Below are positions 34,870 to 39,971 of a DNA stretch of 64,000 nt, one piece after another. How positions within the stretch are numbered: position 1 is the stretch's first letter; the number at the start of each line of letters is the position of its first letter. A program made the position numbers and the translations under genes. This stretch comes from Rhodospirillaceae bacterium (lineage in GTDB: Bacteria > Pseudomonadota > Alphaproteobacteria > UBA8366 > Aestuariispiraceae): contig PAQY01000013.1 of NCBI GenBank assembly GCA_002709955.1, positions 380,057-444,056 of the forward strand, in the 5' to 3' direction. The notes under the pieces are model-generated. The model was not told where the DNA came from. It saw only the letters and a list, made by a program, of their open reading frames with translations, and ran no database searches.

Positions 34870-35190
34870 TTACGTGTCTAGGGCGCGTAAGATTTTTGTC
34901 CAGTCCTGCTTCTCGCCCAGAATTCGGATGACAACAAGGTCCTCATCGGCGATTTGATACAGGATATAATGAGACCCAGTTGAATAAATACGGACTGGCG
35001 GGTTTAGCTCTGCGCGCAAGCGGGCTATTTCAGGTGCATAGAGGAGAAGTTGGAAGGTCTGTGTCAGATTGTTGACATAGTTTTCAGCCTGATCTGCTGA
35101 CCACGCAGTGGCTGTGTAAATCCAGATTGCTTCCAGATCTTCCCGTGCTCTTGGCGTTAGCCGATATCTGTTTGGTCTCTTAGGCCCCAT
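34870..35190 (-). CDS. parE: ParE/RelE-family toxin
   Basis: 106 residues starting MGPKRPNRYRLTPRAREDLE, the ParE fold with the typical sequence AIWIYTATAWSADQAENYVNNL, ELNPPVRIYSTGSHYILYQI and VVIRILGEKQDW. ParE toxins poison DNA gyrase. The start overlaps the last 11 bp of parD, the usual antitoxin-first order with coupling. A longer frame to 35229 would run far into parD and lacks support. Confidence 0.9.
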   Translation of the reverse strand: MGPKRPNRYRLTPRAREDLEAIWIYTATAWSADQAENYVNNLTQTFQLLLYAPEIARLRAELNPPVRIYSTGSHYILYQIADEDLVVIRILGEKQDWTKILRALDT

Positions 35191-35422
35191 GCTTTTTGCG
35201 CATCGTTGCATTAAACTCGATTGGGTCAAACAGTTCAGGCGTACCGCTGTTCAGGCCGTCATTGATTGCATCTTGTAAGGTTGCAATCGCGCTTTGGCGC
35301 TCCTGATCACGTCGGATCAAATGCCGCACATAGTCGCTGGTATTGCTGAAACACCCATTTTGTAATTGTTCTTCAATCCACGCTTTCATTGGGTCGGGGA
35401 GAGATACATTCATTGTTGCCAT
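35180..35422 (-). CDS. parD: ParD-family antitoxin
   Basis: 80 residues. MNVSLPDPMKAWIEEQLQNG with SNTSDYVRHLIRRDQER is the ribbon-helix-helix domain that binds DNA; the C-terminal part PELFDPIEFNATMRKKHGA wraps the toxin. ATG 35422 follows GGAGA with 7 bp spacing; ATG 35413 is a shorter option. The perfect palindrome 35458-35474 upstream is the likely operator for autoregulation. Confidence 0.9.
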   Translation of the reverse strand: MATMNVSLPDPMKAWIEEQLQNGCFSNTSDYVRHLIRRDQERQSAIATLQDAINDGLNSGTPELFDPIEFNATMRKKHGA

Positions 35423-35457
35423 CACAATTCTCCATTCAAGTGGAATGATAGAGCATC

Positions 35458-35537: not shown

Positions 35538-36509
35538 TTAGAGTTCCTCATTCCGGTCTGTTGCCGAGGCGGGCTGTTCAGACAGGCCAGCGATTTCGGT
35601 CCACAGGGCGTCGGTCATGTCTATTTTGACAGAGTCCAGTGACGCCTGAAGCTGTTCAACGCTGCGCGCGCCGATGATGGGGCAGGTGATGCCGGGGTGA
35701 TGGGCGGCCCAGGCGACGGCCAGGCTGACCGGGTGTTCGCCTCGTGCATCGGCAAGGGCTGTGAATTTCTCTGCGGTTTCATAGTACCAGGGCACGTCAT
35801 AGCGTTTTGAATACATCTTGTTTTGCACAAGTCGGGTGCCTTCGGGGCGCTGACCGCTGCGATACTTGCCGGTCAGCAATCCACCCGCATTTGGACCGTA
35901 GGAGATTACGCCCAGGTCTTCGGCCTGCGCCAGGGGCAGGATTTCAACCTCTGACTGGCGCTTCACCAGATTGTACATGGGTTGGATGATATCGAACCGG
36001 GACCAGTTGTTCTTATCCTGAATACCCAGCGATTTTGCCAATTGCCAGGCCGCGAAGTTGCTCGCCCCGATATGCAGGACCTTGCCCGCGCGCACGAGGT
36101 CTTCCAAGGCCCGCAGGCTTTCTTCGATCGGGGTTTCAGGGTCCCATTTATGCAGGAAATAGACGTCCAGCCGATCCGTGTTCAGGCGGCGCAGGCTGTC
36201 TTCAACCGCGCGGGTGATGTGGCGGCGATTGGACCCTCTGTCATTGGGGCCCCCTTCATTCAACGGCATGCCGACCTTGGAGGTGATGACCAGCTTGTCC
36301 CGTTCTGGTGCAATCAGGCGGCCCAGAATTTCTTCGGCGCGGCCCCCATTATAAACATTGGCACAGTCAAAAAAGATGATGCCCGCATCCCGGCACGCGG
36401 CATACAGGCGACCGGACTCCGCCTCGTCCGCATCGCCGCCAAAGGACATGGTGCCAAAGCATAATTCAGAGACAGTAAGGCCTGTACGGCCCAGTCGGAC
36501 GGATTTCAT
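35538..36509 (-). CDS. aldo/keto reductase
   Basis: 323 residues, TIM barrel, NADPH-dependent. Tetrad Asp/Tyr/Lys/His visible as FFDCANVYNGGRAEEILGR (Asp, Tyr), LVITSKVG (Lys) and VYFLHKWDP (His); GPNAGGLLTGKYRSGQ and PIIGARSVEQLQASL are cofactor-binding regions. It resembles the YajO/Tas-like branch, whose natural substrates are mostly unknown. It starts MKSVRLGRTGLTVSELCFGT. It stands alone between parDE and the ankyrin-like gene. Confidence 0.92.
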   Translation of the reverse strand: MKSVRLGRTGLTVSELCFGTMSFGGDADEAESGRLYAACRDAGIIFFDCANVYNGGRAEEILGRLIAPERDKLVITSKVGMPLNEGGPNDRGSNRRHITRAVEDSLRRLNTDRLDVYFLHKWDPETPIEESLRALEDLVRAGKVLHIGASNFAAWQLAKSLGIQDKNNWSRFDIIQPMYNLVKRQSEVEILPLAQAEDLGVISYGPNAGGLLTGKYRSGQRPEGTRLVQNKMYSKRYDVPWYYETAEKFTALADARGEHPVSLAVAWAAHHPGITCPIIGARSVEQLQASLDSVKIDMTDALWTEIAGLSEQPASATDRNEEL

Positions 36510-36546: not shown

Positions 36547-37044
36547 TTATCCGCCGTTCTGTTCCGCGACCTTGATCAGGGCCATGATGTCGTCGCGCTT
36601 GCCATATTCCTGCATCAGGCGTTCGCGCGTCGTGCGTTTTGTAATCGGCGGCGCGTCCAGTTTGGCACCGGCCAGAACCAACATTTTGACCCACAGGGAG
36701 CGTTGTTCAACTTCCCATCTGTCCCAGGAAATGACGGTGGCCAGCATATCGCCTTCCATCCCGCCCACGGCCGGATTGGCCCCCAATTCCAGATAGCGCA
36801 CGGCAAGCTTTGGACAATCCCTGAAATAGGCGGCATAGAGCGGTGTCCAGACAGAACGGCCCCGCACCAGAATGGCATTCATGTCCTTGCCCTTATAGGC
36901 TTTGTCCAGATCCTCGCATTTCATACAGTAATCAGGGTCCTGATCACTGCATTCCAGTGCCTGTGCCGGTTGGGCTTGAAGCACAAGACCTAAGGTCAGA
37001 CACAGGATTGTAAAAAGAAGGGGCCGCAGCATAACCAACCTCAT
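36547..37044 (-). CDS. periplasmic ankyrin-repeat-like protein
   Basis: 165 residues. A signal peptide MRLVMLRPLLFTILCLTLGL ends near AQA-L (residue 28). The mature part has Cys pairs near its start (ECSDQDPDYCMKCEDL) and two to three ankyrin-like units: WTPLYAAYFRDCPKLAVRYLELGANP and SLWVKMLVLAGAKLDAP. The start ATG 37044 overlaps the cytochrome c stop (ATGA), which sets the start and shows coupling. Periplasmic ankyrin proteins next to redox genes can protect against peroxide (AnkB next to catalase); that role is only suggested here. Confidence 0.78.
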   Translation of the reverse strand: MRLVMLRPLLFTILCLTLGLVLQAQPAQALECSDQDPDYCMKCEDLDKAYKGKDMNAILVRGRSVWTPLYAAYFRDCPKLAVRYLELGANPAVGGMEGDMLATVISWDRWEVEQRSLWVKMLVLAGAKLDAPPITKRTTRERLMQEYGKRDDIMALIKVAEQNGG

Positions 37045-37418
37045 TGTACAGGTGCACAGCGAGAGGGGTCTTCCAGCAATTGTGCGCCATCGCCCTGACA
37101 CGCATAAAATGCCGCCATGTCACGGATCGTCTGACCATCCAATCGGCCTGCATAAATTTCCATGAATTTGTGCGGTCGACGCCCGTCGCGGAAGTTTTGC
37201 AACTGGTTGATCAGATAAACCTCAAACTGGCCATCCAATCGCGGGACGCCAGGCGTTTTTGTGCGCCCAAGCCCGGTTTCCCCATGGCATTTTGGACATT
37301 TCATTTCGATCATCAGGGCCTTGCCTTTGGCGGGGTCCCCTGAGACATCTTGGGCCACTGCCGGTGACAGCCAAAGCAGCAGCGGTGTGACCAAAAGGGT
37401 TATAATGAATGTCTTCAT
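37041..37418 (-). CDS. small class I c-type cytochrome
   Basis: 125 residues. A signal peptide MKTFIITLLVTPLLLWLSPA ends near VAQ (residue 23); the heme site CPKCH is at residues 41-45 and Met 86 in PHKFMEIYAG is the likely sixth ligand. It is a periplasmic electron carrier of the cytochrome c553-like type with GxxRLDGQ and YLINQLQNFRDGRR features. It is coupled to the ankyrin-like gene and divergent from the NADPH oxidase gene. Its redox partner is unknown. Confidence 0.9.
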   Translation of the reverse strand: MKTFIITLLVTPLLLWLSPAVAQDVSGDPAKGKALMIEMKCPKCHGETGLGRTKTPGVPRLDGQFEVYLINQLQNFRDGRRPHKFMEIYAGRLDGQTIRDMAAFYACQGDGAQLLEDPSRCAPVQ

Positions 37419-37538
37419 GGATATAAGATAAAATACTTTCTATTTTTCGGCAATGCTAACCCCTGCTTTTAGATCAGAAGAATCTGTTACAAGAAAACAC
37501 TGTCTATCCGGCAAGAACGCGCTTTAGGAGCCATGGCA

Positions 37539-39584
37539 ATGACCAAGAATGATACCGGGACAATTGTCAAACTGGGGCGCGACGCGATCTCTCAACTGCG
37601 TGATATAGAAACCCGGTTTAAAGTCATCGCGGGCGAAGATGGGAAAATTGATCAGGCTGAGTTGCAGGCGGGGTTGGGACTGCATGATGCGGAGTATGCC
37701 GCCCGTATCTTTGGGCTGATTGATCGGGATGGCAGCGGCACTGTCACGCTGTGGGAATTTATTGATTTCGCACAGATTCTGCTGACTGGATCGCCGGATG
37801 AAAAACTGCGCATCGTCTTTGACCTGCATGATCTGAATGGCGATGGCACCATTGATAAGGCAGAGCTGACCCATATCCTGGACCGCAGTTTGAACGAGCA
37901 CCATCTGGATATTCCGCCCCATAAATTGGATGCCTTAAGCGAGGCGATGTTCCAGAAGGTGGATGCGGATGGCAGCAAATCTATTACATTTGGGGAATTC
38001 AAGGCCTGCATCGATTCCCATCCGGCCCTGAAAGAACAAATGGTCGCAAATTCCGCCACATGGTTGCGATTGCCAGAGCGCATCGAGCGCGACCGTCGCC
38101 GTCAGCACGGACGCCTGTTGCACAATCTGACAGAGGGCGCGATACGCCTGTGGGAGAATGAGCGCCCCTGGCTGGTCCTGTTGGTGCTGTATTTCGCGGC
38201 CAATGCCTGGATGTTTCGCGGTGGCGTGCTGGCCGAAATCCAGTTAGGGTCCGATCTGTTCACCCAGATTGCCCAGGGGGCCGCGGCCTGTCTGAAACTG
38301 AACGGGGCGATCATTCTGATCGCCATGCTGCGCCATTCCCTAACCTTTCTGCGGCGCACCTGGTTTGGACCATTCCTGCCACTGGATCATGCGATCGCGT
38401 TTCATAAAATCGTCGGCCATGTGACCTTTCTATGCGCGGTCATCCATGTGGGGGGGTATATCGGGGCCTATGAGAGCATTATCGACCCGGACTTTTTCAC
38501 ACGCGATGTCGTGTATGGGGAATTGTTCAAATCACGGGTTGGCTGGACCGGCCTGACCTTGATTGGCCTGTTTCTGGTGATGTGGATATTTTCCCTGCGA
38601 TTTGTGCGGGATAAGGGCTTGTTTGACCTGTTCTATATCACCCATCAACTCTATTGGCTGTGGTTTGCCTTCTTCCTGTTGCATGTCCCAGGATTCTGGA
38701 TGTGGGTCGTTGGTCCCGGCGCGCTGTATCTGATTGAACGGGGTATCCGGTTGGTGCACGGGCTGAAAACAACGGATTTGCAGCAAGCCGATGCGCTGTC
38801 TTCTAATGTGACACGGTTGCGGATGACGCGGCCTGACTGGTTTCACTATCAGCCGGGCGAATATGTTTTCCTGAAACATCCGATGATTTCCAGTTTTGAA
38901 TGGCATCCTTTCACCGCCACTTCCAACCCGGAAGAAACGGAAATGTTGGAACTGCATGTGCGGGGGGTCGGAAATTGGACGCACAAGCTGCATGATCTGG
39001 CACAGCAGCCTGTTCCGGAACGCCCGGCCGCATGGACCAGGGTCTATCTGGACGGCCCCTATGGGTCGCCTGCATCGGATATTTTTGACAGCAAGATCCC
39101 CGTATTGATCGGGGCCGGGATTGGGGTGACACCCTTTGCCTCCATCTTACGGTCCATCCTGCACCAGCGCCAACAGGGGGCCGCCAGCCAGATGCAGCGG
39201 ATCTATTTCATCTGGATGAACCGGGATCAGAAAGCCTTTGAATGGTTTGTCGATCTGATGGCGCAATTGGAAGAAGACCCTGCGACGCGCGATGTGATCG
39301 AAATTCAGGTCTATTTGACCGGGCTGCGGGCGGAACTGACATCGGCCAGCCTGACCGTTGCAATGGAAGTCTATCATCAGGAAACGGGACGCGATTTGTT
39401 GACCGGGCTTCATGCCCCGACACGCCTGTCGCGGCCCGATTGGCAGTCCGTTTTCAAATCAATCCGACAGGCCCATCCGGACCAGGCGGTTGATGTTTTC
39501 TATTGCGGGCCTGAAGGCTTATCGCGCGTTTTGTTACGGGAAGCAGGCCGCTTTGACTTCGGGTATAAGAAGGAGAATTTCTGA
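37539..39584 (+). CDS. EF-hand NADPH oxidase (NOX5-like flavocytochrome)
   Basis: 681 residues. N-terminal calcium module: three canonical EF-hand loops, DRDGSGTVTLWE (62-73), DLNGDGTIDKAE (98-109) and DADGSKSITFGE (142-153), plus a degenerate one near 34. Then about six membrane helices with the two heme pairs: His 289 and His 303 (H-x13-H, FHKIVGHVTFLCAVIH) and His 369 and His 382 (H-x12-H). Then FAD motif HPFTATS, NADPH motif GAGIGVTPFASIL, and the C-terminal FYCGPEG...FGYKKENF ending in Phe as in eukaryotic NOX. Such enzymes pass electrons from NADPH to O2, making superoxide, or to other acceptors. ATG 37539 is 8 bp after TAGGAG; ATG 37533 is too close to it. Confidence 0.93.
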   Translation: MTKNDTGTIVKLGRDAISQLRDIETRFKVIAGEDGKIDQAELQAGLGLHDAEYAARIFGLIDRDGSGTVTLWEFIDFAQILLTGSPDEKLRIVFDLHDLNGDGTIDKAELTHILDRSLNEHHLDIPPHKLDALSEAMFQKVDADGSKSITFGEFKACIDSHPALKEQMVANSATWLRLPERIERDRRRQHGRLLHNLTEGAIRLWENERPWLVLLVLYFAANAWMFRGGVLAEIQLGSDLFTQIAQGAAACLKLNGAIILIAMLRHSLTFLRRTWFGPFLPLDHAIAFHKIVGHVTFLCAVIHVGGYIGAYESIIDPDFFTRDVVYGELFKSRVGWTGLTLIGLFLVMWIFSLRFVRDKGLFDLFYITHQLYWLWFAFFLLHVPGFWMWVVGPGALYLIERGIRLVHGLKTTDLQQADALSSNVTRLRMTRPDWFHYQPGEYVFLKHPMISSFEWHPFTATSNPEETEMLELHVRGVGNWTHKLHDLAQQPVPERPAAWTRVYLDGPYGSPASDIFDSKIPVLIGAGIGVTPFASILRSILHQRQQGAASQMQRIYFIWMNRDQKAFEWFVDLMAQLEEDPATRDVIEIQVYLTGLRAELTSASLTVAMEVYHQETGRDLLTGLHAPTRLSRPDWQSVFKSIRQAHPDQAVDVFYCGPEGLSRVLLREAGRFDFGYKKENF

Positions 39585-39587
39585 GCC

Positions 39588-39971
39588 ATGCTGCGCCGTC
39601 TGGACCATGTCCATCTGCGCACCGCCCAGCTTCAGCGCATGATCGATTTCTATACTGACATTCTGGGGCTGACAGTCGGCGCGCGTCCTGATTTCAATTT
39701 CCCAGGTGCCTGGCTGTATTGCGACGGGTTTCCCATCGTACACCTGATCGGTGTCAGCGACCCACCCGCCCCCTATCGACCCGACCAGCAATTGGAACAT
39801 TTCGCCATATCTGCCGACGACATGACGGGGTTTCTGGCGATCCTGCAGCGGAAAGGAATTCCCTATCACCGCGTTGATGTGCCAGGCATGCCGATCACCC
39901 AGATCAATCTCCATGACCCGGATGGCAACCATCTGCATATCGATTTTTCAAGAGAGTCCACATCCGTCTGA
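39588..39971 (+). CDS. VOC-family protein following the NADPH oxidase
   Basis: 127 residues. LRRLDHVHLRTAQLQRMIDF begins with a metal-ligand His; the second module has QLEHFAISADDMTGFLAIL (His) and HDPDGNHLHIDF (His and Asp near the C-terminus). It resembles fosfomycin-resistance/glyoxalase proteins. It starts 3 bp after the oxidase stop and is clearly in the same operon, which hints at a role in handling a reactive product, but no substrate can be named. Confidence 0.87.
   Translation: MLRRLDHVHLRTAQLQRMIDFYTDILGLTVGARPDFNFPGAWLYCDGFPIVHLIGVSDPPAPYRPDQQLEHFAISADDMTGFLAILQRKGIPYHRVDVPGMPITQINLHDPDGNHLHIDFSRESTSV

Follow-up and report, generated by a model that had tools for sequence, protein, structure and literature searches.

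A bacterial NOX5 with a changed oxygen pocket and a constant cytochrome c neighbour: a candidate calcium-gated route to a periplasmic electron acceptor

The window, a stretch of 64,000 nucleotides from an alphaproteobacterium of the Aestuariispiraceae, carries a gene for a NOX5-type EF-hand flavocytochrome of 681 aa (37539..39584, forward strand) in which both residues of the NOX oxygen pocket are replaced and which has a cytochrome c gene and an ankyrin-like gene as neighbours throughout its genus. The explanation that we favour, tentatively and as not quite an even chance, is that the protein is an NADPH dehydrogenase that spans the membrane and is gated by calcium, with an outer face reshaped for the delivery of electrons to a protein of the periplasm, in all likelihood the adjacent cytochrome c. 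A more specific form of this explanation is possible but somewhat doubtful: the enzyme would be a rewired NOX5 acting as a calcium-gated NADPH:cytochrome c oxidoreductase, its O2-reducing site having given way to a docking place for a cytochrome c of its own in the periplasm, with the ankyrin-like protein as a helper and without the making of superoxide.

The open reading frame is complete and without internal stop, and its start codon (ATG, 37539) has an AGGAG 8 nt upstream; an in-frame ATG at 37533 is a possible alternative start. Pfam recognised EF-hands, Ferric_reduct, FAD_binding_8 and NAD_binding_6 in its product. The EF-hand domain occupies residues about 32-160 (37632..38018, forward strand) and consists of a degenerate EF1, read by eye at residues about 32-45, followed by three 12-residue loops that start at residues 62, 98 and 142. 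All three match a loose EF-loop pattern; when the sequence was shuffled 5000 times this pattern gave no match in 4855 cases, one match in 142, two in three and three in none. The strict pattern was passed by two of the three loops; in the one at residue 142, DADGSKSITFGE, position 6 is occupied by Lys in place of the usual Gly. The initial annotation had described three loops of canonical spacing, which are indeed present, and had overlooked the degenerate EF1. The protein has four EF-hands, of which EF2-4 have calcium-type loops, and the same arrangement is found in human NOX5 (6sz5, 8u7y, 8u86), where EF2-4 are canonical (PMC11088703, excerpts). Two other bacterial NOX5s, L026 and L027 (Burkholderiales, isolate BP7), have an EF region in which no loop fits the calcium pattern; judged from their loops, these may be calcium-blind.

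The membrane part holds two pairs of heme histidines, H289/H303 (spacing x13) and H369/H382 (x12), which are the only histidines of the TM region spaced in this way, align with the axial histidines of csNOX5 and are unchanged in 18 of the 18 NOX sequences compared. A six-helix ferric-reductase domain is present and its helices are visible in the AlphaFold2 model. The FAD and NADPH modules are represented by HPFTATS (HPFT), GAGIGVTPF (GxGxG), CGP and a terminal Phe, the last residues being ENF as in human NOX5. The heme pairs, both motifs and the terminal Phe had already been listed from the sequence, and all were found. Three of the signature positions given in PMC3591440 (His101, Thr178 and Gly179) correspond to H289, T337 (Ser in three of the five full-length orthologues) and G338. 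All five full-length orthologues retain the terminal Phe and, in TM4, the Thr/Ser-Gly pair; four retain the inter-heme Trp and Phe, Pacificispira being the exception. The dN/dS values of the gene (0.05-0.18, with dS saturated) fit purifying selection.

Among solved structures the best full-length match by sequence was human NOX5 (E 5e-127), the DH domain of csNOX5 coming next, and the TM region searched alone matched csNOX5 5o0t best (E 6.4e-39). The AlphaFold2 model (mean pLDDT 80.5) superposed on human NOX2 8wej with Z 33.3 (rmsd 3.0 over 471), on human NOX5 8u86 with Z 30.5 (rmsd 5.0 over 424), on the TM part of csNOX5 5o0t with Z 23.2 (rmsd 2.6 over 206) and on the csNOX5 DH domain with Z 31.6 (rmsd 1.7 over 248). 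NOX2 and NOX5 chains headed the list of fold matches, a list filled by the catalytic core, so that the EF-hand part was barely probed. By sequence family the protein is a NOX5, which bears out the earlier assignment as a NOX5-like NADPH oxidase; the structure prediction and homology comparison that had been proposed as a check returned NOX enzymes, not plain ferric reductases, as the best matches. In a tree of 21 NOX sequences, built without any ferric reductase and omitting a duplicate (L019), a copy broken by an N run (L021) and a fragment (L035), the clade of the window had support of 100/100 and a stem of 1.01 changes per site. Its sister group was formed by alphaproteobacterial NOX5s with Arg and His in the pocket (89/95, below the starring threshold). 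The basal forks that would separate NOX5 from DUOX stayed open in this tree, in which DUOX1 and human NOX5 lie on long branches.

The preservation of the other catalytic parts and the NOX identity of the best matches both speak for the main rival explanation, that this is a conventional calcium-activated NOX5 which delivers superoxide into the periplasm, the pocket changes serving to tune the rate and the cytochrome c being a scavenger of superoxide or an unrelated neighbour. We consider this doubtful, though far from negligible, and one reason lies in the oxygen pocket. According to excerpts of PMC8129163, the O2 cavity of csNOX5 is formed by the heme together with Arg256, His317 and the axial ligand His313, and earlier work cited there found the R256S and H317R variants to be at least fivefold slower. 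In the window protein the position of Arg256 is taken by Gln246 (codon CAG, 38274..38276, forward strand) and that of His317 by Tyr307 (codon TAT, 38457..38459, forward strand), as read from an ungapped alignment to 5o0t and from the survey of homologues. Gln and Tyr were found in six of the six orthologues of the genus, counting five full-length proteins, among them the one from the window, as well as the initial piece of the copy broken by the N run. Among the other NOX sequences (n=16), Arg or Lys was found in 15 and His in 13; the tally covers the 21 sequences of the tree with the first pieces of L021 and L031, the Arg of L031 being read from its first piece. As the clade is sister to alphaproteobacterial NOX5s with Arg and His, the Gln/Tyr state is most simply explained as derived.

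The replacement of both cavity residues throughout the genus weakens the case for superoxide as the product. The initial annotation had proposed a calcium-switched superoxide or transmembrane electron-transfer enzyme; of this the calcium switch remains probable, in view of the EF loops, while the superoxide part has lost ground. With csNOX5 His317 equated with NOX2 His119, the protein lacks the O2-pocket residues of superoxide-producing NADPH oxidases (this His together with Arg256), and by this signature we do not class it among them; it may still reduce O2. Moreover, two genomes of the genus encode a second NOX5 with Arg and His, to which the classical function could fall in these bacteria, which also argues against superoxide as the role of the Gln/Tyr protein. 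His-119 of NOX2 was proposed to belong to the signature of NOX enzymes that generate ROS, and its loss to be one mark of metalloreductases, yet proteins of the NOX group without it exist and the knockout of one of them reduced ROS (PMC3591440, excerpts). A search of PMC9568551 for the pocket residues found no mention of them.

The lost histidine also raises the possibility that a NOX has turned into a transmembrane metal reductase, acting on ferric or cupric ions with the chemistry of ferric reductases, since this loss is the proposed metalloreductase feature (PMC3591440, excerpts). We regard this as improbable: the protein matches NOX5 over its full length, its sister group consists of NOX5s (in the tree without ferric reductases), and the neighbours tested with Pfam at the window and Pacificispira loci are not metal-uptake genes. 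The three sequences of the survey without the pocket His are all myxobacterial, two having Phe together with Arg (L030 and L033) and one Tyr together with Ser (L034). This looks like a separate change, and the pocket sequences make a second, independent change of output possible in the myxobacterial NOX5s.

Besides the pocket, the outer face as a whole has changed. Outer loop C (residues 308-332; 38460..38534, forward strand) has in this clade a specific insert of 7 residues around DPDFFTR, contained in the strongly kept sequence YES..DPDFFTR(D/E)..YGELF. Between the window and Pacificispira 21 of its 25 residues are identical, against 58% identity overall (p=0.005, a single uncorrected test); 34 of the 657 segments of 25 residues are equally conserved, and those from elsewhere map near EF3 or to the NADPH domain. 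Relative to 11 comparators, 13 substitutions are fixed in the clade, and 7 of them fell within the outer 103 of the 681 residues (2.0 expected, p=0.0012). This outer set, made up of the periplasmic loops and the outward-facing half of the membrane domain, was defined by us from the helices of the model and NOX topology, and the comparison used 18 of the 21 tree sequences (without human DUOX1, the partial L031 and the truncated L033), two myxobacterial ones being then left out. With the myxobacterial sequences restored the count was 3/6 (p=0.048) if a single exception was tolerated, 7/13 (p=0.0012) with two and 9/21 (p=0.0018) with three. The other six groups gave 21/122 when pooled, and human NOX5, taken as a control of a single sequence, was likewise enriched (13/43, p=0.007). 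On these alignments the outer face is the most changed part of the NOX in this clade, which does not favour a conventional superoxide-producing NOX5.

Immediately upstream and divergent from the NOX gene, with 120 bp between the start codons, lies a gene for a secreted monoheme cytochrome c (37041..37418, reverse strand) with the heme motif CPKCH, a Pfam match and a signal peptide recognised by eye. It resembles one half of cytochrome c4 (6q2u, 1etp), aligning to each half with E 1.4e-21; unlike the members of that family, which have two heme domains, it has a single CxxCH and so falls outside it. The gene is followed by that of the ankyrin-like protein (36547..37044, reverse strand), the ATG of which overlaps the stop codon of the cytochrome gene (ATGA) in the window, and then by an aldo/keto reductase (AKR) gene assigned by Pfam (35538..36509, reverse strand). 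On the other side a protein of VOC/glyoxalase fold (Pfam; 39588..39971, forward strand) is encoded 3 nt downstream of NOX. The operon with VOC and the divergent cytochrome c and ankyrin pair are thus arranged as the initial annotation had them. For the defence role that it had considered, no evidence came from the sequence, fold and neighbourhood comparisons. In the shared divergent intergenic region (37419..37538), five of the six genomes have conserved AAGATAAAATACTTT, which in the window occupies about 37425-37439, close to the start of the cytochrome c gene and upstream of it; by its position this could be a promoter or operator element. Just past the aldo/keto reductase gene a ParD/ParE toxin-antitoxin pair was seen (34870-35425, reverse strand), which is present at L021 too and was not found near the NOX copies L018, L020 and L036.

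A survey of whether these genes stay linked had been suggested, and it supported linkage for two of them. The cytochrome c and ankyrin-like genes adjoin NOX in six of six genomes of the genus, Pacificispira included, which amounts to the evidence of one lineage. VOC proved less constant, since VOC and AKR lie beside NOX in five of the six; in the 18 kb examined around the Pacificispira NOX no VOC, AKR or DXS gene was found, and the three-gene core is kept there. VOC was accordingly rejected as a core of the conserved unit. The stretches examined at 13 further NOX5 loci, those of the second paralogues among them, yielded neither the cytochrome c nor the ankyrin-like gene. A wider cytochrome link for the other bacterial NOX5s was also rejected, CxxCH ORFs being seen only near L030 and L034 (the one at L034 without a Pfam match) in a scan that can undercount, as it missed the real cytochrome of L020, where the longest ORF overlaps the NOX start.

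Some observations count against the cytochrome c as electron acceptor. All three myxobacterial NOX5s lack the pocket His, yet at L030 and L034, the two of their loci that were searched, no neighbouring cytochrome c was found. Moreover, cytochrome orthologues with 48-51% identity (L050 and L051) are encoded in two genomes of the same family that lack this NOX; no homologues of the other genes of the window were found near them. The cytochrome is hence not exclusive to this NOX, and it looks recruited. The mature cytochrome is also nearly neutral (-2 to +2 by charge count), so that no clear electrostatic match to loop C can be seen.

The distribution of the ankyrin-like protein is narrower. It was found in six of 98 relatives, exactly those with this NOX and always adjacent to it, and in none of the 92 others; in a sample of 385 genomes of the class it was found in two, both of this genus. 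Its gene product has a signal peptide (by eye) and four Cys in the mature part. The ankyrin label given to it earlier found no support in Pfam, with no ankyrin match in any of five members, and weak support in fold: the model (pLDDT 80.7) gave a best Z of 7.9, below the safe level for repeats, against matches that, among those listed, were mostly ankyrin or DARPin chains. Foldseek returned nothing significant (best E 0.67). Its strict co-occurrence with the NOX brings up the idea that the true partner is this secreted protein with its four cysteines and not the cytochrome, and that NOX and a heme-dependent oxidant defence act together; ankyrin-repeat proteins are reported to interact with catalase and promote it in other bacteria (review, PMC10294975, excerpts). 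We give this little credence, since the ankyrin fold is drawn from the Z of 7.9 with no Pfam family behind it, a redox role of the cysteines is putative, and the overlap of its start with the cytochrome stop codon in the window suggests that both proteins may act together.

Returning to the favoured explanation, electron transfer to the adjacent cytochrome c, the following course can be proposed. Cytosolic Ca2+ would bind EF2-4 and hydride would then pass from NADPH to FAD, as in human NOX5, where Ca2+ permits hydride transfer (PMC11088703, excerpts). Electrons would cross the membrane through two b hemes, one held by H289 and H369 and the other by H303 and H382. On the periplasmic side the O2 pocket is altered (Arg to Gln, His to Tyr) and loop C has its insert, so that the most likely exit for the electrons would be a protein docked there from the periplasm, for which the c4-like cytochrome c is the candidate. 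From there they could reach the respiratory chain: the genome encodes CcoP, a subunit of cbb3 oxidase, so that reduced cytochrome c could be reoxidised. The ankyrin-like protein might, speculatively, help in docking or assist a heme enzyme.

SpNOX of Streptococcus pneumoniae (8qt6) offers a precedent for the exit of electrons to a cytochrome c. A canonical O2 site was not found in this bacterial NOX, and under anaerobic conditions it hands electrons directly to cytochrome c at 124.7 per min compared with 48 per min for O2; a protein acceptor was suggested by its authors as a possibility (PMC11564096, excerpts). The same protein nevertheless reduces O2, which shows that loss of the pocket need not abolish that reaction and is a point in favour of the superoxide-producing alternative. 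It matches the window model with Z 26.4 (rmsd 3.5 over 375, 17% identity in the fold match) and, unlike it, consists of TM and DH domains only and is constitutively active (PMC11564096, excerpts).

Other known systems share parts of this arrangement. The cyanobacterial csNOX5 (Cylindrospermum stagnale; 5o0t, 5o0x, 8cak) is likewise a bacterial NOX5 with EF-hands, and differs in having Arg256 and His317 where the window protein has Gln and Tyr, in lacking the 7-residue insert of loop C and in its neighbours; no CxxCH ORF of at least 70 aa was found in the stretches examined around the cyanobacterial relatives L023, L024 and L032. Human NOX5 differs by Lys and His at the pocket positions and by insertions in the DH domain. 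MsrPQ (YedYZ) is not known to have EF, FAD and NADPH modules. It is nonetheless a membrane protein with a ferric-reductase domain that passes electrons to a dedicated periplasmic protein, the electrons coming, unlike those proposed here, from the quinone pool and the acceptor MsrP being a molybdoenzyme (PMC11564096, excerpts).

The initial annotation had called EF-hand NOX enzymes rare in bacteria. The rarity was confirmed, but EF-hand NOX5 had been described before in cyanobacteria, where it was attributed to transfer from eukaryotes (PMC9421330 and PMC3591440, excerpts). The gene is present in a single copy in the genome of the window and has an orthologue in six of six genomes of the genus; one of these, attributed to Pacificispira spongiicola KN72, which NCBI places in Alphaproteobacteria, Rhodospirillales, Aestuariispiraceae, has 58% identity to the window protein. 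Among the 98 relatives, 12 had a match at E<=0.001; for the six beyond the genus the matches were weak and partial, the best E being 9e-9. When a profile built from 15 NOX5s was applied at E<=1e-60, it detected the protein in 6/43 genomes of the order, 2/385 of the class and 1/398 of the phylum, all in this genus, the class and phylum genomes being drawn samples, in most of which at most three candidates were scored. Two peptide patterns, run against a collection of 84,980 species genomes, gave at least 19 loci, two of which are one locus at both ends of a contig, in cyanobacteria, alphaproteobacteria, Burkholderiales, a spirochaete, myxobacteria and an unplaced bacterium. Transfer of the gene by plasmids was rejected: 55 plasmid records match, none covers 80% of the query in one place, and the best among the matches listed has 23% identity.

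In the open-licence literature searched no description was found of such a pocket in a NOX5, or of a NOX5 linked to a cytochrome c in this way. The Gln/Tyr pocket with the loop C insert across the genus, and the constant cytochrome c and ankyrin-like neighbours, look new. As a candidate protein acceptor is encoded beside the NOX throughout the genus and the oxygen pocket of the family is changed, the question can be addressed directly with two purified proteins. If the favoured explanation is true, a NOX5, regarded as a dedicated ROS enzyme, would be convertible to another output while keeping its calcium switch, and the clade would be a natural experiment on the outer residues that decide between oxygen and a protein partner. 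On its more specific form, the rewired NADPH:cytochrome c oxidoreductase, bacteria would possess a calcium-controlled, superoxide-free route from cytosolic NADPH to periplasmic electron transfer.

Some minor observations concern the other copies. The second NOX5 of the genus (46% identity, with the intact Arg/His pocket) occurs in genomes G003 and G005 (L015, L016, L022 and L037), and no cytochrome c or ankyrin-like gene was found beside its copies at L022 and L037. The NOX copy L021 is split by a run of N in its assembly, and the frame of L031 is broken in its MAG. Finally, record CP051228.1 (L018, L019 and L022) is titled Mesoflavibacter, a flavobacterium, but the NOX locus that it contains has its nearest relatives in this alphaproteobacterial genus and is seen close to each of the two contig ends; the record is probably a mislabel and an unjoined circle.
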